Below, piece by piece: positions 8,080-28,282 of a DNA stretch of 35,014 nucleotides. Position numbers and translations under genes: made by a program. The stretch is from contig JAFURI010000033.1 of the NCBI GenBank assembly GCA_017471885.1, positions 1 to 35,014 on the forward strand, read 5' to 3'. Position 1 is the stretch's first letter; every line of letters begins with the position of its first letter. Origin of the DNA: Clostridia bacterium (lineage in GTDB: Bacteria > Bacillota > Clostridia > Christensenellales > Aristaeellaceae). The notes below the pieces were generated by a model. That model saw only the letters and a program-made list of their open reading frames with translations. It searched no databases and was not told the origin of the DNA.

Positions 8080-8129
8080 GGGAAGAATCTTTCTCCCTCC
8101 CCCTTGCAAAGAAAGAGGTTTTTGTTTAC

Positions 8130-8135: not shown

Positions 8136-8144
8136 AGCAAGGAT

Positions 8145-8160
8145 TTGTTTGCTGAAACAA
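8145..8160. promoter_or_regulatory. Candidate operator over the transcription start
   Basis: TTGTTT-GCTG-AAACAA is a perfect inverted repeat placed at about +3 to +18 relative to the TATAAT at 8130. Its position suggests a repressor site for the glycosidase/xylanase operon. The cognate regulator is not evident. Confidence 0.4.
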
Positions 8161-8188
8161 CCATATAGATGATCAGGAGGGATGAAAC

Positions 8189-9625: not shown

Positions 9626-9636
9626 GGAGAACAGTG

Positions 9637-11109: not shown

Positions 11110-11115
11110 AATATA

Positions 11116-11156
11116 AAGCGCCGCGTACCGGAATCAAAGGCCGGTGCGCGGCGCTT
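11116..11156. terminator. Bidirectional terminator between convergent operons
   Basis: A long stem, AAGCGCCGCG/CGCGGCGCTT extended by ACCGG/CCGGT across a T-G pair, closes a nine-base loop. Short T-rich runs follow on both strands (ACTTTATG on plus, TATATTTTATT on minus). It separates the GH10-like gene from the stop of the regulator at 11170. Confidence 0.8.
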
Positions 11157-11169
11157 ACTTTATGTGCGG

Positions 11170-12960: not shown

Positions 12961-13177
12961 GATCATCTTCCTCTCTTGTGCGGCGGTGGATGGGAAAAGC
13001 ATACCAAAACCGCAGCGAAAAATCAATATAATGCGAGATGTTTCAAAATTAAACGCAAAATGGTAAAAGACCTGTGAATTATGCGTTGAAATCTGACCAT
13101 TTAATCTGCTATTATAAAAGTGATCAAATGTGAGAAAAGCGTTGCAAAGAAAAATGAAAGGCGGGGTGGCGTCACAG
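12961..13177. other. AT-rich divergent control region
   Basis: This 217-bp gap is much richer in A and T than its surroundings and separates the regulator from the acid-sugar operon. It holds the plus-strand promoter at 13086-13115. TGTTTCA at 13039 and TGAAACA at 13189 form a widely spaced inverted pair that might be regulator half-sites. No convincing minus-strand promoter is visible. Confidence 0.4.
13086..13115 (+). promoter_or_regulatory. Sigma-A-type promoter of the acid-sugar/glycan operon
   Basis: -35 TTGAAA (13086-13091), 18-bp spacer and -10 TATTAT (13110-13115) predict a start near 13122, about 55 bases before the kinase ATG. There is no -24/-12 sigma-54 element, in line with the degenerate ATPase domain of the neighbouring regulator. 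Confidence 0.5.
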
Positions 13178-14446
13178 ATGTTGCAAAATGAAACAGCCGG
13201 GCGCGTAACGCCCCGTCTGGCGGTGATTGCGGACGATATTACCGGCTCCTTCGATACCGGCGTACAGTTCCAGATGCGCGGCGCAGCGGTGCGCTTTGCG
13301 CTGGGGACGCAGCTGCCGGAGCTGCTTGAGGGCGCGCAGGTGCTGGTGATCGACGCGGAAACCCGCCACGCCTCACCGGAAGAAACCTATGCGGAGATCC
13401 GTCGCCTGGCCCTGTGGACGGTGCAGATGGGTATTCCGCATCTGTATATCAAGACAGATTCCGGCCTGCGGGGTCACGTCGGCATGGCGCTGAAGGCCGC
13501 GCTGGATGCGACGGGCTGCAGATTGTGCGGCTTCGCGCCGGCGTATCCGGATATGGACCGCATCACCCGGGACGGTCAGCAGATCATTTCCGGCGTGCCG
13601 CTGCATTGCAGCGTGTTCGGGCAGGATCTGTTCGATCCCGTCCGGGGCTCGGGCATCCGGGATATGATTCTTCCCTCCGGCGCCACCGTCATGGAAATGG
13701 GGCTGGACGGGAACTGGGACACCCGGACCGCGGAGCCTGCCGTGGCGGTGTTCGATACGGTGTGCAATGAAGATTTCGACCGCATTGCGTTGCATCTGCA
13801 GGCCATGGGGCAGCTGAGGCTGACCGCGGGCTGCGCGGCCTTTGCGTCCCACCTGCCCGGCGTGCTGGGGCTGCCGGATCTCCCGGCTGTGCCCCCGGAG
13901 GTTACGGCGCCGCTGCTGGTGGTGTGCGGGAGTCTTAATCCCATTACCAGAGCGCAGATGGAATATGGCGAAAAGCAGGGCGGCGTACGCTGCTCCATGT
14001 CCATGGCGCAGCTGCTGGAGGAGGATTATCTGGACAGCGCGGAAGGCATGGTGTGGCTGGAGGGACTCCGCCTGCAGCTGAAGGCGCGCCGTACGCTGCT
14101 GGTGGATACGGGTCTGCAGCCCCCCTGCGGGAATACGGCCCCGGCGGATATGGACGGCGCGCGGGTGCGCATTGCCGCCCAGCTGGGACGGCTGATGCTG
14201 CGGTTGATCTCCATGGAGGAGTCCGAGGGCTGCATGCCCATGATGATCGGCGGCGATACGCTGATGGGCTTCCTGAACCAGCTGTCCTCGCCTGAGGTGA
14301 TGCTGGAGGGCGAGGCCGCGCCCGGGGTGGTGTGCTTCTCCATCGCGTGGCGGAACAGGCGGCTCCGCATGCTGTCCAAGAGCGGCGGCTTCGGCGGAGC
14401 AACCCTGCTGCAGGATATGCTTACAACACAGATGCTTTGCGTATGA
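13178..14446 (+). CDS. Four-carbon acid sugar kinase family protein (DUF1537)
   Basis: A 422-aa ATP-dependent kinase of the family that phosphorylates threonate, erythronate, 2- or 3-oxo-tetronate or 3-oxo-isoapionate. Motifs: ADDITGSFDTGVQF at 18-31, IKTDSGLRGHVG at 91-102, FAPAYPDMDR near 119-128, GGDTLMGFL and SKSGGFGG near the C terminus, the last two typical of the nucleotide-binding domain. In-frame starts exist at 13130 (GTG), 13154 (ATG), 13166 (GTG) and 13178 (ATG); the last follows AAAGGCGGGG by 11 bases and is chosen. The 13130 GTG is almost at the predicted transcription start and has no binding site. It is the first gene of the operon and partners a PdxA homologue four genes on, a pair known from D-threonate and erythronate breakdown. 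Exact substrate unknown. Confidence 0.88.
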   Translation: MLQNETAGRVTPRLAVIADDITGSFDTGVQFQMRGAAVRFALGTQLPELLEGAQVLVIDAETRHASPEETYAEIRRLALWTVQMGIPHLYIKTDSGLRGHVGMALKAALDATGCRLCGFAPAYPDMDRITRDGQQIISGVPLHCSVFGQDLFDPVRGSGIRDMILPSGATVMEMGLDGNWDTRTAEPAVAVFDTVCNEDFDRIALHLQAMGQLRLTAGCAAFASHLPGVLGLPDLPAVPPEVTAPLLVVCGSLNPITRAQMEYGEKQGGVRCSMSMAQLLEEDYLDSAEGMVWLEGLRLQLKARRTLLVDTGLQPPCGNTAPADMDGARVRIAAQLGRLMLRLISMEESEGCMPMMIGGDTLMGFLNQLSSPEVMLEGEAAPGVVCFSIAWRNRRLRMLSKSGGFGGATLLQDMLTTQMLCV

Positions 14447-14457
14447 GGTGACGGAAC

Positions 14458-15600
14458 ATGTATGCATGCAAAACGCCCAAGGCGGTTTATGCAGGTCAGG
14501 ACGCGCTGAACCAGCTGCCCGCGCTGCTTTCCGGCGTGAAGAAGGCCGTGGTGTTTTCCGATCGGGGGATTGAGAAGTCCGGCGTACTGGACAAGCCCCT
14601 GCAGCTGATGCAGAGCGCGGGCGTGGAGTATGCGCTTTTGACGGATCTGCCCGCCGAGCCCACGTATCATCAGGCGCAGGCGACGGTGGAGGCCTTCCGC
14701 GCGGCGCAGGGCGAGGTGATCGTCGCCATCGGCGGCGGCAGCGTGATGGACGCAGCCAAGCTTTGCTCCATCCTTGCGGACGGACGCTGGAGTGTGAAGG
14801 ATCTGCTGGACGATCCTTCCCGGGGCCGCAAGACCGTGCGCAGCGTGATGATCCCCACCACCGCGGGCACCGGCGCGGAGGCCACGCCCAATGCAATCGT
14901 GGCTGTGCCGGAGAAGGAGCTGAAGGTAGGCATCGTGTGTGAGGAAATGATCCCCGACGCGGTGATCCTTGACGGCGAAATGATCGCCCGGCTCCCGGCG
15001 CATATCGCCGCATCCACCGGCGTGGACGCGCTGTGCCACGCCGTCGAGTGCTATACCTCGAAGAAGGCGACCCCCTTCAGCAACCTCTACGCCATGGAGG
15101 CGCTGAAGCTGATTATCCCGAACATTGAAAAGGCCTGTCTGGATCCGGAGGCCATCGAAAGCAAGAATGCCATGCTGCTGGCAGCTTATTACGCCGGCGT
15201 GGCCATCACCTGCTCCGGCACCACGGCGGTGCATGCGCTGTCCTATCCGCTGGGCGGCAAATATCACATCCCCCACGGCGTGGCTAACGCTATGATGCTC
15301 ATGCCGGTGATGCACTTCAACTTTGACTGCATCCGCGCGGAGCTGGCGCAGGTGCACGACGCGCTGGGACAGACTGCGGCCGAAACCGAGGCGGACAAGG
15401 CCCGCTGGACGCTGGAGCGCATGGAGGAAATTGTCCGCACGCTGAAGATTCCCACCGACCTGAAGGCCTACGGCGTACCGGCGGAGGATCTGGAGGGCCT
15501 TGTGAAGGCCGGTATGGACGTGCAGCGCCTGCTGGTGAACAACAAGCGCACCGTGACGGCGGAGGACGCCCGGAAACTGTATCTGGAACTGCTTGCTTGA
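14458..15600 (+). CDS. Iron-containing alcohol dehydrogenase
   Basis: A 380-aa group III alcohol dehydrogenase using NAD(P) and a divalent metal. The nucleotide-binding motif GGGSVMDAAK is at 92-101 and the TTAGTGAEAT stretch at 134-143. Metal ligands by family position are D190 and H194 (GVDALCHAVE), H259 (TTAVHALSYPLGG) and H273 (IPHGVANA), all present. GAGGTG overlaps the stop of the kinase and precedes the ATG at 14458 by about eight bases. The ORF ends just before the next ribosome binding site. Within this operon it probably interconverts a hydroxy and a keto or aldehyde form of the sugar acid, or reduces an aldolase product. General butanol-type fermentation is less likely given the context. 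Confidence 0.9.
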   Translation: MYACKTPKAVYAGQDALNQLPALLSGVKKAVVFSDRGIEKSGVLDKPLQLMQSAGVEYALLTDLPAEPTYHQAQATVEAFRAAQGEVIVAIGGGSVMDAAKLCSILADGRWSVKDLLDDPSRGRKTVRSVMIPTTAGTGAEATPNAIVAVPEKELKVGIVCEEMIPDAVILDGEMIARLPAHIAASTGVDALCHAVECYTSKKATPFSNLYAMEALKLIIPNIEKACLDPEAIESKNAMLLAAYYAGVAITCSGTTAVHALSYPLGGKYHIPHGVANAMMLMPVMHFNFDCIRAELAQVHDALGQTAAETEADKARWTLERMEEIVRTLKIPTDLKAYGVPAEDLEGLVKAGMDVQRLLVNNKRTVTAEDARKLYLELLA

Positions 15601-15614
15601 GGAGGCGCATCCAC

Positions 15615-16508
15615 ATGAAGGACATTCGCGGCATTATCGTACCGATTATCACCCCCATGCATGAGGACGAATCCGTCAACGAGCAGGAGCTGCGCCGCCA
15701 GATCGACCGGCTGATTGACGCAGGTGTGCACGGCATCTTCCCCTTCGGCACCAACGGCGAGGGATATATCCTCTCCGAGAGCGAGAAGGAGCAGGTGCTG
15801 GCGGTGTGCATCGATCAGGTGAAGGGCCGCGTGCCGGTCTATGCCGGAACCGGCTGCATCTCCACCCGGGATACCATCCGCCTGTCGAAGAAGGCGCAGG
15901 AGATGGGCGCGGACGTGCTGTCCATCATCACCCCCTCCTTTGCGGCGGCCTCCCAGAATGAACTGATCGACCATTACAGGGCTGTGGCGGACAGCGTGGA
16001 GCTGCCCATCCTGCTGTACAACATTCCCGCCCGCACCGGCAACGCTCTGGCGCCCGCCACGGTGGAGAAGCTGGCTCAGGTGCCCAACATTGTGGGCGTG
16101 AAGGACTCCAGCGGCAACTTTGACAACATCCTGCAGTACATCGAGCGCACCCGCGGCGGCGACTTCACCGTGTTGTCCGGCAACGACTCGCTGATCCTGT
16201 GGACGCTGCTGGCAGGCGGCAAGGGCGGCATCGCCGGCTGCGCCAACGTGTTCCCCCGCAATATGGTATCCATTTATGAAAGCTGGAAGGCCGGCGATAT
16301 GGAAAAAGCCCGCTGGGCGCAGGACGCTATCCGTCCCTTCCGCAACTGCTTCCGCTTCGGCAACCCCAATACCATCGTCAAGACGGCTACCGCCATGCTG
16401 GGCTATCCCGTGGGCAAGTGCCGCGCCCCCTTCAACGGCCTGTCCGCCGAGGGCGTGGCTGCGGTAAAGGACGCGTTGACGCTGCTGGCGGGTCAGGGGG
16501 TGTGCTGA
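15615..16508 (+). CDS. DapA-family aldolase (dihydrodipicolinate synthase / N-acetylneuraminate lyase superfamily)
   Basis: A 297-aa class I (Schiff base) TIM-barrel aldolase or dehydratase. The Schiff-base lysine is K163 in GVKDSSG, the catalytic tyrosine Y135 in YNIPARTG, and the GTNGEG loop at 45-50 is the usual carboxylate-binding GTTGE variant. GGAGG at 15601-15605 is nine bases before the ATG at 15615; a TTG at 15597 overlapping the previous gene is rejected. The lysine-biosynthetic role is unlikely in this setting. It more probably cleaves or dehydrates a 2-keto-3-deoxy sugar acid. The gene overlaps pdxA by one base (TGATG), so the two are translationally coupled. Confidence 0.85.
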   Translation: MKDIRGIIVPIITPMHEDESVNEQELRRQIDRLIDAGVHGIFPFGTNGEGYILSESEKEQVLAVCIDQVKGRVPVYAGTGCISTRDTIRLSKKAQEMGADVLSIITPSFAAASQNELIDHYRAVADSVELPILLYNIPARTGNALAPATVEKLAQVPNIVGVKDSSGNFDNILQYIERTRGGDFTVLSGNDSLILWTLLAGGKGGIAGCANVFPRNMVSIYESWKAGDMEKARWAQDAIRPFRNCFRFGNPNTIVKTATAMLGYPVGKCRAPFNGLSAEGVAAVKDALTLLAGQGVC

Positions 16509-17542
16509 TGAAGCCCATTATTGGCATTACCATGGGCGATCCCGCCTCCATCGGCCCGGAGCTGTGCCTGCGGGCGCTGGCGGATGAGACGCTCTATGAC
16601 CGCTGCCGTCCCCTGATTGTGGGCGACGCTGCCATCCTTCAGCGGGCGATGCTGATTCCCGGCATGCCGCAGCTGAAGCTGAACCCCATCGCACAGGTGA
16701 AGGACGCTGTCTTCACCCCCGGCGTGATGGACGTGATCGACCTCGGATGCGTCTCCGCAGAGGAGGTGGAGGTGGGTCAGGTCAGCGCCAAGGCCGGCGA
16801 CGCGGCGTTCCAGTACGTCCGCAGGGTGATTGAGCTTGCCATGGCGAACGAGGTGGACGCTACCGTCACCAACGCCCTGAACAAGGAAGCCATGAATCTG
16901 GCGGGACATCACTTCTCCGGCCATACGGAGATTTACGCTCACTACACCGGTACCCAGCGCTACACCATGATGCTGGCCCACGAGGACGTGCGCATCGTGC
17001 ATGTATCCACCCACGTCTCCCTCAGGGAGGCCTGCGACCGGGCGAAGAAGGCCCGCGTGCTGGAGGTCATCCGCATTGCGGCAAAGGCCTGCCGGGACAT
17101 GGGCGTCGAAAATCCCCGGGTGGGCGTGGCAGGATTGAATCCCCACTGCGGCGAGGGCGGACTGTTCGGCCGGGAGGAGATTGAGGAGATCGGTCCCGCC
17201 ATCGAGGCGGCCCGCGCCGAGGGTATCGACGCGCAGGGCCCCGTGCCGCCGGATACCATCTTCTCCAAGGCCCGGGGAGGCTGGTACGATATCGTGGTGG
17301 CCATGTATCACGATCAGGGCCACATCCCGCTGAAGCTGATGGGCTTTGTGTTCGACCGGGATACGCAGAAGTGGCAGGCGGTCAGCGGCGTGAACATCAC
17401 GCTGGGGCTGCCCATCATCCGCACGTCGGTGGATCACGGTACTGCGTTTGATCAGGCAGGTCGGGGCACGGCCTCGGAAATCAGCCTGATGAACGCCATC
17501 CAGTACGCGATTGATTTTGCCCGGGTACGGGTGCAAGCCTGA
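16508..17542 (+). CDS. PdxA-family 4-phospho-sugar-acid dehydrogenase (PdxA2-like)
   Basis: A 344-aa NAD-dependent dehydrogenase/decarboxylase of the PdxA family. It opens with IGITMGDPASIGPEL, and the divalent-metal histidines are in place: H169 (STHVSL), H213 (NPHCGEGG) and H268 (YHDQGHIPLK). Next to a DUF1537 kinase, PdxA homologues are known to act as 4-phospho-D-threonate (or erythronate) 3-dehydrogenases that yield dihydroxyacetone phosphate and CO2, rather than in vitamin B6 synthesis; I infer the same here. The start overlaps the stop of the aldolase (TGATG) and has a G-rich AGGGGG binding site; the longer open frame from 16418 runs inside the aldolase gene. It is followed after 20 bases by the first permease. 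Confidence 0.88.
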   Translation: MKPIIGITMGDPASIGPELCLRALADETLYDRCRPLIVGDAAILQRAMLIPGMPQLKLNPIAQVKDAVFTPGVMDVIDLGCVSAEEVEVGQVSAKAGDAAFQYVRRVIELAMANEVDATVTNALNKEAMNLAGHHFSGHTEIYAHYTGTQRYTMMLAHEDVRIVHVSTHVSLREACDRAKKARVLEVIRIAAKACRDMGVENPRVGVAGLNPHCGEGGLFGREEIEEIGPAIEAARAEGIDAQGPVPPDTIFSKARGGWYDIVVAMYHDQGHIPLKLMGFVFDRDTQKWQAVSGVNITLGLPIIRTSVDHGTAFDQAGRGTASEISLMNAIQYAIDFARVRVQA

Positions 17543-17562
17543 CAAGCAAGGAGGTATGGCTT

Positions 17563-18519
17563 ATGACTGTTTTCAAACGGAAAAAGATGAATTCCGTCGT
17601 GGCGGGCCATGACTGGAAATCACAGCTGACGCTGCAGGCCTTTGTATGGCCGGCGCTGATCATCGTGGTGATGATCTCCTACTTCCCCATGTACGGCGTC
17701 AGCATTGCCTTCAAGGATTACAACATCTTCAAGGGCATCGCTGCCAGCCCCATCGCCAGCAACAACGGCTTTGAACATTTTATCGACTTCTTCTCCACGG
17801 AGAGCTGCGGACGAATCCTGTTCAACACCGTATACATCGCCTTCCTGAAGCTCATCTGCCTGACCTGGCCCCCCGTGGTGCTGGCCGTGCTGCTCAATGA
17901 GCTGAAGAACGCGCGGGTGATGAAGCTGTCCCAGACCCTGTCCTACCTGCCCCACTTCATCGGCTGGTCGGTGGCTTACGGCATCTTCTACAACCTGCTG
18001 AATCCCTCTGCCGGCGCCATCAACGTGCTGCTGCAGGACTGGGGACTCATCAGCAAGCCCATCAACTTCCTGTCTGAGGAAGTCTACTACCGCCCGATGA
18101 TCATCCTCACCGGTCTGTGGAAGAACATCGGCTGGAACTCCATTATCTATCTGGGCGTGATCTGCAGCATCGATCAGGGCCTGTATGAGGCGCTGGCTAT
18201 CGACGGCGGCAACCGCTGGCACAAGTTCCGCTACATCACCTGGCCGCACCTTAAGCCCACCTTCGCCATCCTGTTCATTCTGGAGTGCGGCAAGATCATG
18301 TCCGGCGGCGACGGCTTCGACCAGGCCTACGCCTTCGGCAACCCCAACAACCGTCAGGTGGCCGATATTCTGGATACCTACATCATGCGTACCGGCTTTG
18401 AAAACGGCCGCTACTCCTATTCCACCGCTGTGGGCCTGTTCAAGTCCGTGGTGAACCTGATCCTGCTGCTTGTGTCTAACAAGATCAGCAAGGTCATGAC
18501 CAACGAATCGCTGTTCTAA
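17563..18519 (+). CDS. Sugar ABC transporter permease, LplB type
   Basis: A 318-aa inner-membrane permease of the CUT1 carbohydrate importer class, with about six membrane segments (for example 25-45, 85-110, 130-148, 178-200, 230-245, 285-305). The cytoplasmic EAA loop that contacts the ATPase is at 209-232 (YEALAIDGG...WPHLKP). AAGGAGG precedes the ATG. Together with the next two genes it forms an LplB-LplC-LplA-like importer of the kind used by Bacillota for complex oligosaccharides. No ATP-binding subunit is encoded nearby, so a shared MsmX-type ATPase elsewhere in the genome is expected. The fixed position after pdxA indicates import of the substrate for the whole operon. Confidence 0.92.
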   Translation: MTVFKRKKMNSVVAGHDWKSQLTLQAFVWPALIIVVMISYFPMYGVSIAFKDYNIFKGIAASPIASNNGFEHFIDFFSTESCGRILFNTVYIAFLKLICLTWPPVVLAVLLNELKNARVMKLSQTLSYLPHFIGWSVAYGIFYNLLNPSAGAINVLLQDWGLISKPINFLSEEVYYRPMIILTGLWKNIGWNSIIYLGVICSIDQGLYEALAIDGGNRWHKFRYITWPHLKPTFAILFILECGKIMSGGDGFDQAYAFGNPNNRQVADILDTYIMRTGFENGRYSYSTAVGLFKSVVNLILLLVSNKISKVMTNESLF

Positions 18520-18532
18520 GGAGGTGACGAGC

Positions 18533-19432
18533 ATGATCAACAAGCAGACGGCAAAGCCCGGCAAGGCGTGGGACAAGCGCTACCAGGCCTTCGACTACCT
18601 GAACGTGTTCCTGATGATCGTATTGATGTTCGTCATCGTGTACCCGTTCTATTACGCAGTGCTTAACTCTTTCAACGCGGATCTGATCCGCAAGCCCTCC
18701 TTCATCTGGAACGCCAACTGGACGCTCCGCCCCTACCAGACGGTGTTCGGCGACGTGAGCATCATCAACGGCTTCATCAACTCCGTTTTGCGTACGGTGA
18801 TGGGTACTGCGCTGGCGGTGGTTACCTGCTCTCTGGCGGCCTTCGCGCTGAGCAAGAGCCACCTGAAGATGCGCGCCCTGTACCTGACCATCTTCATCAT
18901 CCCCACGTTCTTCGACGGTGGTCAGATTCCCGCTTACCTGAACCTGAAGAGCCTGGGCCTGCTGAATACCTTCTGGGTGTATCTGGTGCCCAAGATGTTC
19001 AGCTTCTTCTGGATGACCATCCTGATGACCAACTTCCGCGGTATTCCCAACGAGCTGGAGGAGGCCGCCTACATCGACGGCGCATCCACGGCGCGTATCT
19101 TCTTCGGTATCGTGCTTCCCATCTCGCTGCCCGCGCTGGCCACTATCGCGCTGTATGCTGCTGTCAGCCAGTGGAACTCCTGGTACGATACGGCTTACTT
19201 CACCAATAGTGAAAAGCTGACCACGCTGAGCTGGATCCTGATGCGTACCATCAAGAATCAGGCCTTCGCAGACATGGCCAACGACATGCATGCCTTTGAC
19301 AACCGCGCCTACAACCCCGAGGGTGTGAAGATGGCGACCATGGTGGTGGCGGCCGTGCCGATCATCATGATCTACCCGTTCCTGCAGCGTTACTTCGTCA
19401 AGGGCCTGATGGTCGGCTCCATCAAGGGCTGA
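18533..19432 (+). CDS. Sugar ABC transporter permease, LplC/MalG type
   Basis: A 299-aa inner-membrane permease, the partner of the preceding LplB-type protein. It has six predicted membrane segments and an EAA loop at 177-200 (EEAAYIDGAS...LPISLP). GGAGG at 18520-18524 is eight bases before the ATG at 18533; a GTG at 18524 inside the binding site is rejected. It lies 13 bases after the first permease and 67 bases before the binding-protein gene. Its family imports oligosaccharides; specificity comes from the binding protein. Confidence 0.92.
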   Translation: MINKQTAKPGKAWDKRYQAFDYLNVFLMIVLMFVIVYPFYYAVLNSFNADLIRKPSFIWNANWTLRPYQTVFGDVSIINGFINSVLRTVMGTALAVVTCSLAAFALSKSHLKMRALYLTIFIIPTFFDGGQIPAYLNLKSLGLLNTFWVYLVPKMFSFFWMTILMTNFRGIPNELEEAAYIDGASTARIFFGIVLPISLPALATIALYAAVSQWNSWYDTAYFTNSEKLTTLSWILMRTIKNQAFADMANDMHAFDNRAYNPEGVKMATMVVAAVPIIMIYPFLQRYFVKGLMVGSIKG

Positions 19433-19499
19433 CACACACTTTGGATTTAGCGTACCGGCTCAAGGTGCGTTGATCAATAACAGAAAGGAGACCCTCCCT

Positions 19500-21146
19500 A
19501 TGAAGAAGCTCGTTTCCCTGATGCTGGCTCTGCTGATGTGCCTGAGCATCGTGTCCTTCGGCTCTGCTGAGGACGTCCCCGCTTACCTGAGCGACACCTC
19601 TCCCGTGACCCTGAAGATGTACTACGACCGTCCCGTTGACGGCAACCTGGTGGCCCAGGCCAACGGCAACGAGCCCCTGTCCATCAAGTGGAAGGAAGAG
19701 ACCGGCGTCACCATCGACTTCCAGTACGCTGTGGACGACTCCCACACCAAGCTGAACATGATGATCACCTCCGGCGACTATCCGGACATCCTGATCTGCT
19801 ACAGCAACTATGACATGCTGCAGGATCTGGCCGACAACGGCGTGATCATCGCCTACAACAAGGTCGAGGAAGAATATGACCCCGGCTTCATGAGCCGCGT
19901 CATGTCCGCCAACACCATCCTGGCCATGCGTCAGAAGTTCGGCACCATGGACGTGTTCGCCGTGCCCACCTACTCCTTCAAGGTGGAAGACCTGCAGCGC
20001 GATGACATCGCCCGCTGCATGACCGGCATGATGGTCCGCAAGAACATCTACGAAGCCATCGGCTCTCCCGACATGTCCACCATCGAGGGCACGCTGGACG
20101 CCTTCCGCAAGGTGAAGCAGATGTTCCCCGACATCATCCCCGTTCAGGGCCATCGTAATTCCTCCAACGACGGCGACGGCAATCCCCGCATCATCGGCCG
20201 CGCCTTCCAGTACTTCGACCTGACCGGCAACTACTACTATGACGAGGCTGACAATACCTACAAGAAGTATTGGAACAGCCCCAACTACCTCGAGCAGCTC
20301 AAGTTCGTCAACACTCTGTACAACGAGGGCCTGATGGATCCCGCCGAGCTGACCGACTCCGGCGAGCAGCTGCAGGCCAAGCTGTTCAGCGGCCGCATCT
20401 TCTGCAACCTGAACAACGACGCTGACAACACCGACTGGTTCAACAACGAGTTCACTGCTGCGGGCGTGGATGACGAGTGGATCTTCATTGAGCCCATGTG
20501 CCTGGACACCGAGGAAGGCTACACCTACGACAACATCAACGGCGGCGTGGGCGACCACTGCATCGTCGTCTTCAACACCCCCAACGCCAAGCGCTCCATG
20601 ATGTTCGTCGACTATCTGATGCAGGATCAGCAGCAGATCGAAATCCTGATGGGCATTCAGGGCCAGACCTGGGACTACAACGAGGCCGGCGTTGCCAAGA
20701 CCTTCGACGAGTTCGTCTCCATGCCCGACGCTGACAAGAAGACCAAGTACGGCATCGGCCTGTGGTACTTCCTGCGTCAGGAGCTGCACAACAACATCAT
20801 GAAGAAGTATGCCGGCACTGCCGCTCAGACCGCCAACATCGAGTTCATGAGCCAGTTCTACAAGGACTACTCCTTCATCACCAACGGCAAGGCCGAGAAC
20901 TACGCCGCCGATTCCGAGGAGATCAAGATCTTCACCAACATCAAGGAATACTATGAGGTGCAGGTCCGCAAGATCATCATGGCTGATCCTTCCCAGGTTG
21001 AGCCCATGTACAAGGAAATGATGGCGAAGATCTACGATCTGGGCCAGGCCAAGCTGGACGCCTACATCGACAACTACTACAAGAACAAGGCTGAGGCCGC
21101 CAAGGAGTACGGCTCCGATCTGGATCTGTCCTTCATGGGTCTGTAA
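19500..21146 (+). CDS. Extracellular solute-binding protein (LplA-like, family 1)
   Basis: A 548-aa substrate-binding protein. The N terminus MKKLVSLMLALLMCLSIVSF is a Sec signal; cleavage after GSA before EDVPAY is likely. A cysteine lies inside the hydrophobic core, but without a proper lipobox, so membrane anchoring is uncertain. The mature region has the two-lobed binding-protein pattern (SPVTLKMYYDRP at the start, an aromatic-rich sugar-site region including TGNYYYDE and WKEETGVTIDFQYAV). AAAGGAG precedes the ATG at 19500; a TTG at 19470 upstream is rejected. Its size is typical for LplA-type proteins that bind large glycans. It is followed by the hairpin at 21172-21202, which may stabilise its mRNA and raise its level over downstream genes. 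Confidence 0.9.
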   Translation: MKKLVSLMLALLMCLSIVSFGSAEDVPAYLSDTSPVTLKMYYDRPVDGNLVAQANGNEPLSIKWKEETGVTIDFQYAVDDSHTKLNMMITSGDYPDILICYSNYDMLQDLADNGVIIAYNKVEEEYDPGFMSRVMSANTILAMRQKFGTMDVFAVPTYSFKVEDLQRDDIARCMTGMMVRKNIYEAIGSPDMSTIEGTLDAFRKVKQMFPDIIPVQGHRNSSNDGDGNPRIIGRAFQYFDLTGNYYYDEADNTYKKYWNSPNYLEQLKFVNTLYNEGLMDPAELTDSGEQLQAKLFSGRIFCNLNNDADNTDWFNNEFTAAGVDDEWIFIEPMCLDTEEGYTYDNINGGVGDHCIVVFNTPNAKRSMMFVDYLMQDQQQIEILMGIQGQTWDYNEAGVAKTFDEFVSMPDADKKTKYGIGLWYFLRQELHNNIMKKYAGTAAQTANIEFMSQFYKDYSFITNGKAENYAADSEEIKIFTNIKEYYEVQVRKIIMADPSQVEPMYKEMMAKIYDLGQAKLDAYIDNYYKNKAEAAKEYGSDLDLSFMGL

Positions 21147-21171
21147 TCAGTCTGAATTCCCGCTAATCACC

Positions 21172-21202
21172 GGGGGCAGCTCGCACAAGCGGGGCTGCCC
21201 CC
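21172..21202 (+). terminator. Hairpin after the binding-protein gene (partial terminator or mRNA stabiliser)
   Basis: A 9-bp perfect stem GGGGGCAGC/GCTGCCCCC with a long loop is followed by TTTCTGTG, a weak T-tract. Because the next genes follow closely and have no promoter of their own that I can see, partial termination or RNA stabilisation is more likely than a full stop. Confidence 0.6.
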
Positions 21203-21239
21203 TTTCTGTGCTGTGCATGGTTATGAAAGGAGCATGGTT

Positions 21240-23336
21240 ATGACCCATGAGGATATCCGCCGTCTCCTGACGGTGATGAACCGTTCGCACCAGCATCTGC
21301 CCGGAAAGCAGCTGCTGGGCCCCACCGGCGCAAGGCTCTGGATGGACTATCTGGATCCGCTGCCCGGCTTTGCCGGACGGGCTGATTTCATCCACAAGAT
21401 CAATCTGCCCATGCTCTTTACCGTTGCGGCGGAGGGTCAGCCTTTGCAGCTGATTCCCGCACAGTCCCGCTGGACGCCGGACGAAACCCGCGTGCATTAC
21501 GAGAATGATCTCCTCTGCTTCGACGAGCGCAAGACCATCACATGGGACGATTGCGCCGTCAGTTTGCAGCGCTGGGAGAATCGCTCCGACAACACGGTGA
21601 CGTTGTCGCTGTCCCTGCCGGATGGCGCAGCGGAGGGCGAAGTCTTTGCCTTCCCGGTGTGCAATCACGGCGTGGAGCCGGTGATGCTGTGCCGCGCGCA
21701 GGGCTTCGGCGAGGGCGGAAGCATCACCCTTGCACCCGGCGGAAAAGCAGAAGTGCTGATCGCGGCCGCCGTGGCGCTCCGGGGCGAAGAAGATCAGCTG
21801 GCGCCCCGGCTGGAGCGGCTGATGGACGGCCGTGAGCCGGAGCTGCTGCTGGATCAGCTGTGCGAAAGCTACATGCGCTGGTTCGACGACGTGCCGGAGT
21901 TCCGCTGCAGCGATCCCATGATCAGCGCCTGCTGGTATTACCGTTTCTACATTCTGCGCAAGAATCTGGCCTGCCCCGGCGTGGGAAGGCTGCCTATCCG
22001 CACCTTCTACGAGGGCCGCTCCCACCTGATGGACAAGCGTCCCGGCGGACCGCCCAGCGGCTGGGAGTTCTGTCGGCTGATTCCCCTGTCCACGCCCATG
22101 CATGTGCAGGACGTGCGCTGGATGAAGGACCTGTCCCTCGGCGCGGACGCGCTGGAGACGCTGACCCATGCCATGGACGAGAACGGCGTCTTCGCGGTGA
22201 CCAGCATCGAGAAGTCCAATCTGGAGTATGCCAACTACGCCTCCTGGGCGCTGTATCTGTGGTATCAGTGCAGCGGCGATCTGGAGACGGTGAAGAAGCT
22301 TCTGCCTGCCTTCAAGCAGGACGCGAAGAGCGTCTTCAGCATTACCGGCTGCAGCTGGGACGCGCTGCAGATTGAAGCCACCCACGCCCGCACGGGCAAG
22401 GAGTATCAGCCCAGCTACTGGTTCTTCGGCAAGGATTGCTTCCCGCAGAAGGTACGCCCTGCCAAGGAGGGCTATTCGCCCTTGAAGCGGGTGGATCGCT
22501 CCATTTACAGCTACCTGAACTTTTCCGGCCTTGCAGAGCTTTGCACGCTCGCAGGGGATCCGGATGCGGAGTGGTTCCGCAGCAAGGCTGCGCAGATGCG
22601 CAGCGACGTGCTGGGCAAGATGTGGGACGAGCCCTCGGGCTTCTTCTACGACCTGCACCATCAGACGGACGCCAGGGCGTATGTGAAGAACATCGTGGCG
22701 TTCTACCCCTTCTGGGCGGGCATTACGGAGGAGAAGCATCTGCGGGCGCTGAGCTACCTCTTCAGCGCGGATTACTTCTCTCTGGGCTCCGGCTATGCAT
22801 CCACCGCGAAGGACTGCGCGCTCTTCTCGCCCAACGGCGGCTGGCGCGGGGATTACTTCAAGGGCCGCAACGGCTGTATGTGGAACGGCCCCTCCTGGCC
22901 CTATACCACGGGCATTGTGCTGGATGCGCTGGCAAAGCAGTCCAAGGAGCGCGGTCATGCCTACGACGGCGAGTTTGCCCGGGGTCTGCACGAGTACACC
23001 ATGGAGCATTTCCGCGGCGGCAATGTGAACGATCCCTTCCTGGTGGAGCATTACAACAGCGTGACCGGTGAAAACATCAGCACGGAGCCGGATTACAACC
23101 ACTCCTACTATGTGGATCTGGTGGTGCGCCATCTGGCGGGTATCGAGCCGGATGATCAGGGCGTGCGGTTCCATCCGGTGGACGCTGGGCTGCGCAGCCT
23201 GTGCATCAGGGACGTGCGCGTGCGGAATCACCGCTTCGACGTGGCGCTGGAGCGGGGCGTTTATACCGTGCACATGGACGGCGAAATGGTTTATGAGGGC
23301 GCGGGCCGGGAGGACGTGCGCCTGATTGCGTGGTGA
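21240..23336 (+). CDS. Large six-hairpin glycoside hydrolase-like protein
   Basis: A 698-aa protein without signal peptide. The N-terminal 190 residues look like a beta-sandwich; the rest fits an (alpha/alpha)6 barrel of the trehalase/GH63/MGH1-like superfamily, with NYASWALYLWYQCSGDLE, SITGCSWDALQIEATHAR, MWDEPSGFFYDL and the signature-like CMWNGPSWPYTTGIVLDAL, followed by HYNSVTGENISTEPDYNHSYYVDLV. Aspartates and glutamates in these segments are candidate catalytic residues. AAAGGAG is seven bases before the ATG at 21240; ATG 21234 and GTG 21213 are poorer starts. It probably cuts a glycosidic bond in the imported oligosaccharide. Substrate unknown; it is not closely similar to the shorter enzyme at 8189. 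Confidence 0.78.
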   Translation: MTHEDIRRLLTVMNRSHQHLPGKQLLGPTGARLWMDYLDPLPGFAGRADFIHKINLPMLFTVAAEGQPLQLIPAQSRWTPDETRVHYENDLLCFDERKTITWDDCAVSLQRWENRSDNTVTLSLSLPDGAAEGEVFAFPVCNHGVEPVMLCRAQGFGEGGSITLAPGGKAEVLIAAAVALRGEEDQLAPRLERLMDGREPELLLDQLCESYMRWFDDVPEFRCSDPMISACWYYRFYILRKNLACPGVGRLPIRTFYEGRSHLMDKRPGGPPSGWEFCRLIPLSTPMHVQDVRWMKDLSLGADALETLTHAMDENGVFAVTSIEKSNLEYANYASWALYLWYQCSGDLETVKKLLPAFKQDAKSVFSITGCSWDALQIEATHARTGKEYQPSYWFFGKDCFPQKVRPAKEGYSPLKRVDRSIYSYLNFSGLAELCTLAGDPDAEWFRSKAAQMRSDVLGKMWDEPSGFFYDLHHQTDARAYVKNIVAFYPFWAGITEEKHLRALSYLFSADYFSLGSGYASTAKDCALFSPNGGWRGDYFKGRNGCMWNGPSWPYTTGIVLDALAKQSKERGHAYDGEFARGLHEYTMEHFRGGNVNDPFLVEHYNSVTGENISTEPDYNHSYYVDLVVRHLAGIEPDDQGVRFHPVDAGLRSLCIRDVRVRNHRFDVALERGVYTVHMDGEMVYEGAGREDVRLIAW

Positions 23337-23350
23337 AAGGAGAAATGATA

Positions 23351-24670
23351 ATGCTGCCTTATCCCAAGGAGCCTGTACGCCTTGCGCTGATTGGCGCAGG
23401 ACACCGGTCGAATACCATCTACAAGCCTCTCTTTGAGGACTTGAAGCCGTGGATCAGTCTGGTGGCGGTGTGTGATCCCATCAGGGAGCATGCGGACGCG
23501 CTGGCGCAGGAGCTGGGCGCGCGGCCTTATTATGATATCCAGACCATGGTGCGTGACGGCGGTATTGAGGCAGCGGTGGTGGTTGCGCCCATTCCGCTGC
23601 ATCACGCCTACAGTGTGTACCTGTCACAGCATAAGATTCACAACCTGATTGAAACCATGTGGTGCAATACCCTGTCCCAGGCGCGGGACATGGTGAAGCA
23701 GGCAAAGGAAAACGGCGTGGTGACCGGTGTATGCGAGAACTTCTACCGCTATCCCATCGACCGCTTTGCCCAGACGCTGAAGAAGCATGGCTACATCGGC
23801 GATATCAGGCGCATCTTTTCCTATAACGACCATACCGGCTATCATTCCAACTCCCGCTGGCTGGTGTTTGCGCAGGAGGATCCCCAGTGGATCAGCGCCA
23901 TGGAGCATGACATGCAGGTCACGCCCTACTATGAATCAAAGGAGCGCTACTGGGATCACGAGCTGTTCCGCTCACGGTTTATTTCCTTCCCGTCCGGACT
24001 GATGGTCATCGACCAGGCGGCGAACATCAAGGGCATGCTGGGCCGTCAGGTGAGGCCGGGTTATACGGAGTGGCACGGTACCCGCGGCGCGCTGGTGCAG
24101 CAGGGCGGACGCTACGAGGCGCCCCATTACCGCGTGCTGGACAACAACCACCGCACGGAGGTGGGCACGGGCGTGCACAGCGAGTGGACGGCGGAAATCC
24201 GCTGCTGCGATTATGAGGATTCGCTGGCTTTTACGGATGATATCCGTCCCGCCAAGCCCAACGTGATCTCCAAAGTGGAGCGCTATTACAATGACGAAGG
24301 CGCGTATGCCGGCATCCGTGCGGCTATTCCCGGCGGTACGATCGACTACGCCAACCCGATCGTGATGAAGAACAGCGGCAGCCACTACTTCAAGGAATAC
24401 GGCGTGTGCGTGGCGGGTCATCTGGTGGACTTTGCCCTGCGCATCCGCGGTCTGAAGGACAGCGAGTTTGACGAGAAGAAGGCCCTCATGTCCATGATGA
24501 TGGAGGTGGCGGCCCGCGAGTCCGTGCTGCAGAAGGGCGCGCAGATCGCCCTGCCGCTGGAGGGCGAACAGGAATCGGACGAGCTGACCCTGAAGCGGCT
24601 GCGCAGCCTTTACGGCGTGGATCCCATGGACGTGGAGGCTGTCATGGCCCTGAAGCTGGGCAAGCCGTAA
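23351..24670 (+). CDS. Gfo/Idh/MocA family oxidoreductase lacking the usual EKP lysine
   Basis: A 439-aa NAD(P)-dependent oxidoreductase. The N-terminal Rossmann fold is clear: LALIGAGHRS at 11-20 and AVCDP near 39-43. Where family members have the catalytic EKP motif this protein reads ETMW (101-104), so the lysine is gone. The C-terminal part, with VCENFYRYP and a long beta-region to 400, is the dimerisation domain; GHLVDFALRIRGL near 360 is typical of family ends. AAAGGAG lies eight bases before the ATG at 23351; ATG 23345 and GTG 23330 are less favoured. It may oxidise, epimerise or cleave (as some NAD-dependent glycosidases do) a sugar or uronate. The missing lysine makes normal hydride-transfer chemistry uncertain. 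Confidence 0.82.
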   Translation: MLPYPKEPVRLALIGAGHRSNTIYKPLFEDLKPWISLVAVCDPIREHADALAQELGARPYYDIQTMVRDGGIEAAVVVAPIPLHHAYSVYLSQHKIHNLIETMWCNTLSQARDMVKQAKENGVVTGVCENFYRYPIDRFAQTLKKHGYIGDIRRIFSYNDHTGYHSNSRWLVFAQEDPQWISAMEHDMQVTPYYESKERYWDHELFRSRFISFPSGLMVIDQAANIKGMLGRQVRPGYTEWHGTRGALVQQGGRYEAPHYRVLDNNHRTEVGTGVHSEWTAEIRCCDYEDSLAFTDDIRPAKPNVISKVERYYNDEGAYAGIRAAIPGGTIDYANPIVMKNSGSHYFKEYGVCVAGHLVDFALRIRGLKDSEFDEKKALMSMMMEVAARESVLQKGAQIALPLEGEQESDELTLKRLRSLYGVDPMDVEAVMALKLGKP

Positions 24671-24684
24671 CGGAGGAACAGACC

Positions 24685-25770
24685 ATGCTGGAGAGAATGC
24701 CCTCGGAAAGCCGGTGGACAAGGGACGAAAAGACAGGCAGGCCTGTGCGGCAGGTTACCTGCGCGCCCGCCATCAGCCATCACCCCTTCTTTCTTGCTCC
24801 GGCCTATGACGGCAGCGGGCGGTATCTCATCTTTGTGTCGTTCCGTACGGGCAGCGGACAGCTGTATGCGGAGGACAGCCGGGAGGGGGGCATCCTGCGC
24901 CTGACGGACGTGGAGGCGCTGGACGAATGGTCGGTGTACCCGTCGGGGGAGCATGTGTATTTTGCCGCGAACGGCGGCGCTATGCGGGTGAGCCTTGCGG
25001 ACGGCACGGTGGAAACGCTGCTGTGCGCGCAGGCATGCCGGGAGCGCTTCGGCGGCCCGGTGGGAGAGGGTACCACCGCCCTGACGAAGGACGGACGCTT
25101 CTGGGCTGTGCGGGTGAAGCAGGAAAAGGGTTTTGCCATCATCATCCGCGATAATGCAAGCGGCGAATGGTCACTCAGCTATGAGGGCCCCATGGTGGCG
25201 CACCTGCAGTTTTGCCCGGATGACGACAATCTGCTTTTCTTCGCCGGCCTCCTGACCGATCGCGTATGGGTGCTGGACAGGAAGAGGGGACAGGCGCGGC
25301 GGATTTACACCCGGAATGCGGCGGCGAAGCAGTGGATCACCCATGAATCATGGATTCCCGGGCGGCGGGAGCTGTCGCTGGTGGACTGGCCCCATGGTGT
25401 GCTCGGGGTGAATGTGGATACGGGCGCTGTGCGCCGGATTGCGGACTTCAACGCATGGCACGCCGTCTGCAATGAGGACGGCACGCTGATGGCGGCGGAC
25501 ACCAACTTCCCGGACAGGGGGATCTTCCTCTTTGATCCCCGCAGGGAGGGCGACGCGCCCCGGCTGCTGTGCTGCCCGGAGGCCTCCTGCATGGGCGCGC
25601 ACTGGGCAGAGCCCTTCCCCTATGACAACGGGCCTGTCCGTGTCTACGCGCCCCAGCATACCCATCCGCATCCCCGGTTTTCGCCGGACGGAAGCAAGCT
25701 TGTTTTCACCTCGGACAGGAGCGGTACGGCTCAATTGTACGAGATCAATCTGAAGGATAAAGGAGATTGA
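24685..25770 (+). CDS. Oligogalacturonate lyase-like beta-propeller (PL22 type)
   Basis: A 361-aa seven-bladed propeller resembling oligogalacturonate lyases, which split short oligogalacturonates by beta-elimination inside the cell. The metal site of that family (Gln and three His) seems kept: QHTHPH (Q324, H327, H329) near the C terminus and H259 in AWHAVCNEDGTL. The catalytic histidine region is THESW (H220). The tail HPHPRFSPDGSKLVFTSD is characteristic. No signal peptide. GGAGG precedes the ATG. It is slightly shorter than usual for the family. It lies between the Gfo/Idh gene and the propeller protein, with only 14 and 2 bases between. The family could also include relatives acting on other uronates, so the substrate is uncertain. 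Confidence 0.78.
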   Translation: MLERMPSESRWTRDEKTGRPVRQVTCAPAISHHPFFLAPAYDGSGRYLIFVSFRTGSGQLYAEDSREGGILRLTDVEALDEWSVYPSGEHVYFAANGGAMRVSLADGTVETLLCAQACRERFGGPVGEGTTALTKDGRFWAVRVKQEKGFAIIIRDNASGEWSLSYEGPMVAHLQFCPDDDNLLFFAGLLTDRVWVLDRKRGQARRIYTRNAAAKQWITHESWIPGRRELSLVDWPHGVLGVNVDTGAVRRIADFNAWHAVCNEDGTLMAADTNFPDRGIFLFDPRREGDAPRLLCCPEASCMGAHWAEPFPYDNGPVRVYAPQHTHPHPRFSPDGSKLVFTSDRSGTAQLYEINLKDKGD

Positions 25771-25772
25771 CC

Positions 25773-27545
25773 ATGAAGAAGATTGCCTATCGCGGAGCCG
25801 AAGCGGCAGATATCCGCTTCCACGACGGCGCGCTGCGCATGGTGAACGGTGCGTGCCATATTCAGGTGATGCGCGCCAACCGTGAGCATCCTGAGCTGTC
25901 GCAGGGTACGGATTACACCTACAACCATGCGCCCATGCTCTGCCGCTGGCACGGCATGCTGTACCTCATGTACCTCTCCAGCCCCGTGCACGAGCATGAC
26001 GGCCATGCCAACGCGCTGCTGATGAGCAGTCCCGACGGCTTCACCTGGGGTCAGCCGAAGGTGATTTTTCCCACCATTCCGGTGCCGGAAGGAATCTACT
26101 GCGGCAAGGATGCGGACAAGCTGACTTATCCCGCCCAGTCGGTGGTGCATCACCGCATGGGCTTCTACCGTGCGCCCAACGACGTGCTGCTGGTGATGAC
26201 CCATCACGGCGTGAGCCCGCACATCCATGTGATCCCCAATTCTGGCTACGGCATGGGCCGCGTGGTGCGCCGCATCCATGAGGACGGCACGCTGGGCGAT
26301 ATCTGCCTGCTGCGGGTCAATACGCAGGCAGGCTGGAGGAAGGTGCATTTCCCCTATCCGTGGTATGAGGACAGCGGTGATAAGGACTTTGTGGAGGCCT
26401 GCCGCGCGCTGATGGCGGATCAGCCTGCCAATGCTGCGTGGTGGGAGGAGGAGCGGCTGGATACCGACTTCTTCCCGCTGAAAAACATGCGCGCGCCCAG
26501 CATCTGCCCCCTGCCGGACGGCAATCTGGCGGCGGTGGGCAAGGTAGGCGTGGCCTCCGTCAGCGAGGACGGCGGCAAAACCTGGGCTCCGGTGGAGAAG
26601 GCGGAGGGAATCCATTCTGCCGGCGGCAAGAGCGCCATCACCCGTACCGGCGACGGCAAATATGCCATCGTGTACAATCCCTCGCCTGACGGACAGCACC
26701 GCTGGCCTCTGGCGGTCATCACCTCTGAGGACGGCTATACCTATGATCATATGTGCTGCGCAGGCGGCGAGGTACCTCCCATGCGCTACGGCGGATACAT
26801 GAAGGACTATGGCCTGAACTACATCCGCACCATCATGCCCGGCAACGACGACGCACCCGACGGCTACACCTGGATGGCTTATTCCATGAACAAGGAGGAT
26901 ATCTGGGTGATGCGCCTGCCCAGGGCCATCACCGCCGTGGAAACCGAGCCTGTGCGGGATCGCTTTGCGGACATGACCGGCCCCGTGCCGGAGAAGTGGC
27001 ACATCTACAGCCCCCTGTGGGCGAAGGTGGCGCTGGAGGACGGCTGCCTTGTCCTCCGTGACAGCGAGCCCTGGGATTATGCCAAGGCTGTGCGCAACTT
27101 CCCTGAGGCAAGGAAGGTCGCCGTGCGTGCGAAAATCACCGTGCAGGGCGGCGCTAACGGTATGCTGCACATGGAAGTTTCCGACGGAAAGAGCATGAAC
27201 GCAGCGCGCGTGGTGTTGGCGGAGGACGGTACCATCCGTGCCCGCGGCGGCGAAGGCGAGAAGTTGATCGGCCGGTATCAGGATGGTGAGGAGCTGGAGA
27301 TCAGCCTGCAGGTGGATTGCGTCCGTCAGCGCATGCAGGTGGAGATCAACGGGCAGCGGGCAGGCGAATGGCCCGTGATGTGTCCCGTGCTGACGCTGGA
27401 GCGCCTGACCCTGCGTACCGGCGCGGTTCGCACATGGCCCACGCCGGAAACCGAGCTGAAGGACGTATGCACTCCGGACTTTGAAAACCCCGGAGAGCGC
27501 ATCCCGGAGGCCGTGTACCGCGTGGTCAGCGTGGAAATCGAATAA
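25773..27545 (+). CDS. Sialidase-fold (Asp-box) beta-propeller protein with C-terminal beta-sandwich
   Basis: A 590-aa cytoplasmic protein. Asp-box motifs SSPDGFTW (85-92) and SVSEDGGKTW (262-271), plus a looser TSEDGYTYD, mark a six-bladed propeller of the sialidase superfamily; the final 170 residues look like a lectin-type beta-sandwich. Histidine-rich stretches HEHDGHA and THHGVSPHIH line what may be the active site. Propellers of this kind include glycosidases and polysaccharide lyases acting on rhamnose/uronate linkages, but I cannot choose between them. AAAGGAG is eight bases before the ATG at 25773, which is two bases after the stop of the lyase gene. It is the last gene of the operon, which ends at the palindrome 27556-27589. 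Confidence 0.75.
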   Translation: MKKIAYRGAEAADIRFHDGALRMVNGACHIQVMRANREHPELSQGTDYTYNHAPMLCRWHGMLYLMYLSSPVHEHDGHANALLMSSPDGFTWGQPKVIFPTIPVPEGIYCGKDADKLTYPAQSVVHHRMGFYRAPNDVLLVMTHHGVSPHIHVIPNSGYGMGRVVRRIHEDGTLGDICLLRVNTQAGWRKVHFPYPWYEDSGDKDFVEACRALMADQPANAAWWEEERLDTDFFPLKNMRAPSICPLPDGNLAAVGKVGVASVSEDGGKTWAPVEKAEGIHSAGGKSAITRTGDGKYAIVYNPSPDGQHRWPLAVITSEDGYTYDHMCCAGGEVPPMRYGGYMKDYGLNYIRTIMPGNDDAPDGYTWMAYSMNKEDIWVMRLPRAITAVETEPVRDRFADMTGPVPEKWHIYSPLWAKVALEDGCLVLRDSEPWDYAKAVRNFPEARKVAVRAKITVQGGANGMLHMEVSDGKSMNAARVVLAEDGTIRARGGEGEKLIGRYQDGEELEISLQVDCVRQRMQVEINGQRAGEWPVMCPVLTLERLTLRTGAVRTWPTPETELKDVCTPDFENPGERIPEAVYRVVSVEIE

Positions 27546-27555
27546 GGAGCAAAGC

Positions 27556-27589
27556 AACGCCCGGCATGATCATGATCATGCCGGGCGTT
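27556..27589. terminator. Perfect 34-bp palindrome between convergent operons
   Basis: Two perfect 15-base arms (AACGCCCGGCATGAT and its complement) flank CATG, so the whole 34 bp is an exact palindrome. It lies between the stops at 27545 (plus) and 27612 (minus). No T-tract follows on either strand, so it is an unusual terminator; it may act as a stable RNA end or a protein-binding dyad. Confidence 0.7.
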
Positions 27590-27611
27590 ATGGTATAAGC
27601 AGGCGGGAATA

Positions 27612-28265: not shown

Positions 28266-28282
28266 ATGGTTCGCTCCTTTTA

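Follow-up and report, generated by a model that had tools for sequence, protein, structure and literature searches.

Dha (3-deoxy-D-lyxo-hept-2-ulosaric acid), a sugar of side chain D of rhamnogalacturonan II (RG-II), is a C7 2-keto-3-deoxy diacid. The protein in the Protein Data Bank (PDB) entries 5mqr and 5mqs, which we take to be BT1020 of Bacteroides thetaiotaomicron, presumably attacks this side chain with two halves: an N-terminal GH143 Dha hydrolase and a C-terminal GH142 β-L-arabinofuranosidase. D-threonate is reportedly catabolized by DtnK, a DUF1537 protein, and PdxA2 (Zhang et al., PNAS, 2016), and in the apiose pathway a DUF1537 kinase precedes a RuBisCO-like protein. Three published sources add that Dha and 3-deoxy-D-manno-oct-2-ulosonic acid (Kdo) occur on chains C and D of RG-II, with a terminal β-1,5-arabinofuranose (Araf) on chain D and a terminal rhamnose on chain C (PMC12282258); that RuBisCO-like proteins are linked to 3-oxo-isoapionate 4-phosphate in apiose breakdown (Carter et al., 2018; PMC6302742); and that PdxA2 is an organic-acid catabolic paralog of PdxA (PMC9997740). 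Here we describe an eleven-gene operon of a Clostridia bacterium that probably takes up a piece of RG-II side chain D and breaks down its Dha branch intracellularly. The operon occupies positions 13178-27545 of a 35,014-nucleotide stretch, analyzed at its full length and called the window below; it is contig C102 (JAFURI010000033.1) of a 2.3 Mb assembly (GCA_017471885.1; 77% complete, 145 contigs). Its eleven open reading frames, numbered here in order, all lie on the + strand:

13178-14446, +: DUF1537 kinase (SBD_N, E = 2.4e-34), predicted D-threonate 4-kinase
14458-15600, +: iron-type alcohol dehydrogenase (Fe-ADH and ADH_Fe_C), predicted reductase of D-threuronate, a C4 aldehyde-acid
15615-16508, +: DapA-type class I aldolase (DHDPS, E = 1.8e-78), predicted Dha aldolase
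16508-17542, +: PdxA2-type 4-phosphothreonate dehydrogenase/decarboxylase, assigned from structure matches and a tree
17563-18519, +: LplB-type sugar ABC permease (BPD_transp_1, E = 4.6e-12)
18524-19432, +: LplC-type sugar ABC permease (BPD_transp_1, E = 7.1e-9)
19500-21146, +: extracellular solute-binding protein (SBP_bac_8, E = 1.1e-7), with a hydrophobic, signal-like N-terminal stretch seen by eye
21240-23336, +: six-hairpin glycosidase (gene 8), GH142-related, predicted cytosolic β-L-arabinofuranosidase
23351-24670, +: Gfo/Idh/MocA oxidoreductase (GFO_IDH_MocA, E = 2.4e-13)
24685-25770, +: PL22-like oligogalacturonate lyase, tentatively (Pfam match over 35 residues)
25773-27545, +: GH143-type enzyme (gene 11; PF24067, E = 7.6e-77; PF22585, E = 2.8e-36), predicted cytosolic Dha hydrolase

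The locus resembles each of the known systems in part. Gene 11 matches residues 27-608 of BT1020 end to end and the gene 8 family is distantly similar to residues 648-1099, but in the window the two are separate genes, an oligosaccharide ABC importer sits in the same operon, and gene 11 has no evident signal peptide (by eye). The kinase and dehydrogenase families are those of the DtnK/PdxA2 route, and the window PdxA is of the PdxA2 type; unlike that route, the operon adds a DapA-type aldolase and an Fe-ADH, and the C4 acid would form in the cell from Dha. D-apiose catabolism (Carter et al., 2018; PMC6302742) concerns another RG-II sugar, and such genes occur near GH143 in Bacteroidota, but a RuBisCO-like decarboxylase takes the place of PdxA and the DUF1537 genes form a separate set.

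In the proposed pathway, β-L-Araf-Dha, perhaps still attached to galacturonate, would be imported by LplBC and the binding protein; the GH142-like enzyme would remove L-arabinofuranose, the GH143 enzyme would free Dha, and the PL22-like enzyme may handle galacturonate backbone pieces. The DapA-type enzyme would then cleave Dha into pyruvate and D-threuronate (2,3-dihydroxy-4-oxobutanoate), which the Fe-ADH would turn into D-threonate at the expense of NAD(P)H; phosphorylation by the DUF1537 kinase would give D-threonate 4-phosphate, and PdxA2 would oxidize and decarboxylate it to dihydroxyacetone phosphate (DHAP) and CO2. The net reaction would be Dha + ATP → pyruvate + DHAP + CO2 + ADP, redox-neutral if Fe-ADH and PdxA share a cofactor. 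We infer all reactions and substrates, and the cytosolic location; what is observed is the set of genes with their homologies, the layout of the operon and the linkage conserved between genomes. A literature search, in which subscription papers were thinly covered, returned no title or abstract on Dha breakdown.

Why would enzymes of C4-acid metabolism be needed for a C7 sugar? Pyruvate-type aldol cleavage of Dha leaves a C4 aldehyde with a carboxylate, and reduction of the aldehyde yields a tetronate. In Fischer bookkeeping, the D-lyxo configuration gives D-threonate after retro-aldol cleavage and reduction, as does D-xylo, while D-ribo and D-arabino do not. This prediction agrees with two independent labels: the top NCBIfam match of the window kinase, the better of the two DUF1537 models matched, is D-threonate kinase (NF047819, 138.7 bits), and the PdxA2 structure 6e85 bears the deposited name D-threonate 4-phosphate dehydrogenase. 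The reaction of DapA itself is the joining of a C4 aldehyde-acid with pyruvate, so the family is chemically suited to cleaving Dha. Since stereochemistry, family labels and DapA chemistry agree, the four front enzymes can be read as a single route that takes Dha to pyruvate, DHAP and CO2, and this route requires no new chemistry. The initial annotation, which read the operon as a four-carbon acid-sugar route joined to a glycan importer, missed what would be direct formation of the C4 acid by a DapA aldolase acting on Dha.

The DapA-type protein carries the motifs YNIPARTG, with an Arg also present in the aligned DapA structures, and GVKDSSG, and it passes the 4-hydroxy-tetrahydrodipicolinate synthase equivalog (TIGR00674; 229.8 bits vs a cut-off of 206). 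An ordinary lysine-biosynthetic role is rejected because another DapA copy in the genome, on contig C50, scores higher (295.9 vs 263.4 bits); from this copy and the operon context, 15615-16508 is read as an aldolase despite the equivalog match, and a lysine-pathway dapA label on it is probably a mis-annotation. The Arg of YNIPARTG was also considered as a universal marker of the cassette and fails, with Thr in its place in Bacteroidota cassettes. DapA matches near GH143 at L018 and at L119 look, in the alignment, like another subfamily rather than the cassette type. The nearest solved structures of the Fe-ADH are NAD(P)-dependent methanol dehydrogenases.

The window PdxA is closer to 2hi1, 4jqp and 6e85 (304-306 bits) than to PdxA 1ps6 (186 bits). 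A rapidly built tree of 74 PdxA sequences, supported by the Shimodaira-Hasegawa-like approximate likelihood ratio test (SH-aLRT) and made with no bootstrap, places 31 of the 32 PdxAs that have a DapA neighbor in one 34-row clade (SH-aLRT 86), the labels of L168 and L176 having been assigned by hand from wider regions. The presence of a DapA neighbor thus mostly tracks the descent of PdxA, even between phyla. Outside the clade is only the PdxA of L110, on a long branch; of the three clade members labeled as lacking DapA, L170 (G593) has a DapA fragment at the end of its region (L199). Fourteen second PdxA copies of Bacteroidota form a group of their own (support 100), apart from the window PdxA.

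On the glycan side, what had been called a sialidase-fold propeller is indeed a propeller and can be narrowed to the BT_1020 N-terminal family: gene 11 scores 258.5 bits against PF24067 (cut-off 27), its match to 5mqr over residues 27-608 has E = 2.6e-125, and it retains 76 of the 77 columns that are ≥95% conserved in an 87-row alignment. The PDB record names 5mqr β-L-arabinobiosidase. Used as a profile together with five relatives, gene 8 has residues 648-1099 of 5mqr as its best match (E = 1e-24), followed by 6m5a, presumably a GH121 enzyme (E = 6e-22). By sequence, gene 8 appears distantly related to the C-terminal half of BT1020 and may belong to GH142 or to GH121; its structure model is too poor to be of use (mean predicted local distance difference test, pLDDT, 50). 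At several Bacteroidota loci, L041, L054 and L062 among them, a single reading frame holds both BT1020 parts, and a gene 8 homolog (54-56% identity) stands directly before GH143 in the Clostridia loci L011-L014. The PL22-like assignment of the initial annotation is weak by sequence, with the Pfam match covering 35 residues and TolB chains (up to 1.2e-11) slightly ahead of the oligogalacturonate lyase 3pe7 (E = 6.1e-10 over residues 165-356) in a PDB sequence search; in fold, by contrast, a low-confidence model (mean pLDDT 53.5) matches two oligogalacturonate lyases best, 3pe7 and 3c5m. Because a BT_1020-family gene lies in the operon and the genome holds four apiosidase-family matches elsewhere, two of them near 1e-100, the operon's glycan probably comes from the RG-II part of pectin.

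The association of the four enzymes with GH143 extends well beyond the window. A GH143 alignment scan was read for the best 80 loci of at least 466 confirmed relatives, and 10 of these, all from Bacteroidota, have Fe-ADH, DapA, PdxA and DUF1537 within ~10 kb of GH143 (L022, L030, L034, L039, L042, L046, L049, L057, L075 and L078), nine in the order Fe-ADH-DapA-PdxA-DUF1537. By tblastn alone, DapA is found at 17 of the 80 loci, Fe-ADH at 13, PdxA at 10 and DUF1537 at 9; 12 other window proteins used as controls are found at 0-2 each. A genome survey covered 50 of the 80 GH143 genomes, the 30 left out being mostly Pedobacter. GH143 is present in 50/50 by construction, PdxA in 43/50 (44/51 with the window's genome) and DUF1537 in 35/50, and DapA, PdxA and DUF1537 are clustered in 21. 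In 16 of these (Bacteroidota and one Verrucomicrobiota) the cluster shares a contig with GH143, the kinase lying 2.3-46 kb from it, and in five (G691, G723, G674, G682 and G679) it is on a non-GH143 contig; random placement would put ~0.3 of 18 within 50 kb, an expectation that ignores kinship and excludes three later-found unlinked genomes. No Fe-ADH was detected beside the cluster in G714 and G716. In the Opitutales locus L110, Fe-ADH, DapA, DUF1537, PdxA and GH143 are consecutive, and next to GH143 in the Phycisphaerae locus L024 the contig ends in a DUF1537 fragment.

Among Bacillota the GH143-type family is rare: PF24067 occurs in 4 of 398 phylum genomes (the window's included) and in 4 of 291 class genomes (the window's and one weak match included). 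Three Bacillota genomes from another family (f66) carry DUF1537-PdxA-DapA; in G062 and G165 the cassette shares a contig with GH143 at a distance of 25-27 kb, and in G135 it is on another contig. In G062 an apiosidase-family gene follows the cassette and a GH142-like gene follows GH143. Two other class genomes have strong GH143 matches: PdxA was not found in G629, and G474 has a PdxA with no partners in the 19 kb read. Paenibacillus piri carries, on one strand and in this order, Fe-ADH, DapA, LplB, LplC, GH143 and a GH142-like gene with unannotated stretches between (L232), and a DUF1537-PdxA pair at a separate locus (L228). The complete eleven-gene order, which the initial annotation had proposed to look for in other Clostridia, recurs in no other locus read; the nearest cassette is L116 (G682), with PrpR, DUF1537, Fe-ADH, DapA, PdxA, a 520-aa gene of no assigned family, LplB and LplC, and with GH143 on another contig. 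L111 (G674) has DUF1537, BNR_2, Fe-ADH, DapA and PdxA followed by a TRAP permease, again with GH143 on another contig. Its BNR_2 sialidase-like gene (L111:7044-8204) sits inside the cassette, and of all 80 loci G674 has the GH143 closest to that of the window (65%).

We consider it reasonably likely that these loci share an undescribed, complete and redox-neutral Dha route common to Bacillota, Bacteroidota and Verrucomicrobiota, in which PdxA is co-inherited with a DapA-family aldolase, PdxA+DapA (Dha) and RuBisCO-like (apiose) branches of DUF1537 are separate, and TRAP/TctA cassettes belong to organisms scavenging free Dha. If true, a widespread gene cassette would gain a function, an aldolase probably mis-annotated as dapA would be relabeled, and a marker of RG-II side-chain-D use in Bacillota would suggest itself.

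Several observations pull in the other direction. Both the window kinase (138.7 vs 450 bits, NF047819) and the window PdxA (356.3 vs 583 bits for D-threonate 4-phosphate dehydrogenase, NF002891) fall below their equivalog cut-offs; the DapA proteins of Bacteroidota cassettes are 23-29% identical to the window's, with Thr replacing the motif Arg; and the identity of 5mqr with BT1020, as well as the GH143 and GH142 activities of its halves, is presumed. Of the 50 surveyed GH143 genomes, 29 showed no DapA+PdxA+DUF1537 cluster and 15 lack any DUF1537 match, and PdxA was not found in the genomes of L011-L014, though they have a GH142/GH143 pair like that of the window. A Bacteroidota sample drawn evenly (344 genomes besides the centre) has strong GH143 matches in 19 genomes and a cassette-type kinase (E <1e-80) in five, four with a full cassette; the co-occurrence of this kinase with GH143 has p = 0.026, and GH143 is present in just two of the four cassette genomes, 10 kb away in one and far in the other. 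The remaining two, G797 and G899, have no detected GH143, and in the class sample GH143 was not found in five genomes with full or near-full cassettes (G539, G518, G562, G634 and G593). The G797 cassette neighbors an FGE-sulfatase/BNR_2 propeller protein, a sulfatase and an SSF transporter, that of G899 a GH127-type β-L-arabinofuranosidase and a sub-threshold GH43 match; as a guess, both could still meet Dha-like substrates. TRAP or TctA transporters accompany the cassettes of G539, G518 and G562.

Could the cassette serve another 2-keto-3-deoxy diacid or a plain tetronate, imported as the free acid, its adjacency to RG-II genes being a local convenience? The TRAP/TctA cassettes of genomes with no detected GH143 (L197, L200, L202) and the many GH143 genomes that lack the cassette speak for such a role, and the expectation that similar genes occur with small-acid uptake is borne out at four loci with TRAP or TctA transporters (these three and L111). 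We nevertheless regard it as unlikely: linkage to GH143 recurs in several phyla, the L111 cassette pairs a TRAP permease with a GH143-bearing genome and fits uptake of free Dha, and, by carbon count, it is a C7 2-keto-3-deoxy diacid that would yield the C4 aldehyde-acid.

The initial annotation suggested apiose as an example, the DUF1537 enzyme acting as 3-oxo-isoapionate kinase. Apiose is an RG-II sugar, and the apiosidase-family matches of the genome (four, two near 1e-100) would suit it. In the Bacteroidota sample a DUF1537 of any kind (profile A2, E ≤0.001) is present in 14 genomes, 8 of them GH143-positive (p = 4e-8). Seven of these eight carry a long DUF1537 gene on the GH143 contig, 8-52 kb away (L149-L155), also a point for apiose, but all seven kinases are beside a RuBisCO-like protein, as in the described apiose pathway (PMC6302742). 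At L149 and L152 an SBF transporter is also present beside DUF1537 (Pfam), and at L152 an Asp/Glu racemase; L149-L155 are the probable apiose branch of RG-II loci. Among 111 DUF1537 rows, in which overlapping loci double-count some genes, neighbors were taken within ≤4 kb on the same strand and some loci extend <4 kb, a RuBisCO-like neighbor accompanies 27 and PdxA 69, with no row showing the two together and 15 showing neither of them. Two C4-type kinases thus occur in RG-II loci, and since RuBisCO-like and PdxA neighbors never coincide and the window has PdxA, its kinase lies outside the apiose set. No RuBisCO-like gene was found in the window, whose kinase is of the PdxA+DapA type; apiose or 3-oxo-isoapionate as the substrate of this operon is rejected, since the operon lacks the RuBisCO-like partner, which marks a different set of DUF1537 genes. 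The apiose route would also leave DapA, Fe-ADH and PdxA unexplained, and we rate it as very unlikely. What stands of the earlier interpretation is a C4-acid route joined to glycan import and glycosidases, with pectin (probably RG-II) as the source; apiose as the substrate does not. DUF1537 genes of 488-495 aa were also seen 31, 31, 31 and 3 kb from GH143 in the Clostridia G675, G676, G677 (L011-L013) and G699 (L121), where PdxA was not found, and no RuBisCO-like gene was found among the neighbors read beside the DUF1537 of L121 or L109.

That the aldolase acts on Kdo of side chain C while the kinase/PdxA pair handles an unrelated tetronate is the least probable reading, and Kdo is rejected as its substrate: Kdo is an RG-II sugar too (PMC12282258) and a 2-keto-3-deoxy acid of the sort that DapA-family enzymes are known to cleave, but the product would be a C5 aldose rather than a C4 acid, a carbon count that is wrong for the C4 genes and leaves Fe-ADH, kinase and PdxA unconnected, while the four genes remain together across phyla and the glycosidase pair is presumably of the side-chain-D type.

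The Dha operon is flanked by the following features:

11170-13026, − strand: PrpR_N-type regulator with a Fis-type helix-turn-helix (HTH), divergent from the operon (Pfam PF06506, E = 6.6e-49, and HTH_8)
13086-13115, + strand: predicted σ70 promoter of the operon (TTGAAA-18-TATTAT, 10/12 matches, TG before the −10 element)
27612-28334 and 28283-29104, opposite strand: GDSL and BD-FAE esterase-type genes, downstream of the operon

With the most plausible starts, the intergenic gaps are 11, 14, −1, 20, 4, 67, 93, 14, 14 and 2 bases; same-strand genes separated by −1 to 93 bases and a divergent regulator confirm the eleven-gene operon of the initial annotation, and its family calls (SBD_N/NBD_C of DUF1537, Fe-ADH, DHDPS, PdxA, two BPD_transp_1, SBP_bac_8, MGH1-like GH, Gfo/Idh, PD40/Pectate_lyase22 and a BT_1020-like propeller) are right. 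The single promoter it noted agrees with the site at 13086-13115, the sole + strand σ70-like site in 11000-28700 by a promoter scan that in itself is little proof, having found 3 promoter-like sites on both strands vs 5.5 expected by shuffling. GAFTGA, the motif of σ54 activators, is absent from the inspected sequence of the PrpR_N-type regulator; σ54 control through this protein is rejected in view of the missing motif and the σ70-like promoter. Homologs of the regulator are also divergent to the same kinase gene at L111 and L116. Because the downstream esterase-type genes lie on the other strand, the operon seems to end with the propeller gene.

Other genes of possible relevance surround these loci. 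Upstream of the regulator, 7142-11109 holds a GH43-type gene (−) and, on the + strand, a second MGH1-like glycosidase with a GH10-like gene after it, probably further glycan genes of the same region. A protein that joins FGE-sulfatase, a BNR_2 propeller and MORN_2 repeats (L193:10094-12388 and L146:1442-3937) is encoded upstream of GH143 in G062, separated from it by a Gfo/Idh gene, and upstream of the G797 cassette, separated by a sulfatase gene; it is a candidate second hydrolase for Dha or Kdo. The window's own genome has a second GH143-type gene, 34% identical to that of the window, at L119 (G000:C89:21500-41110), a possible second RG-II locus whose neighbors are LplBC, a binding protein and a sub-threshold GH106-like match, with an off-type DapA relative just upstream.

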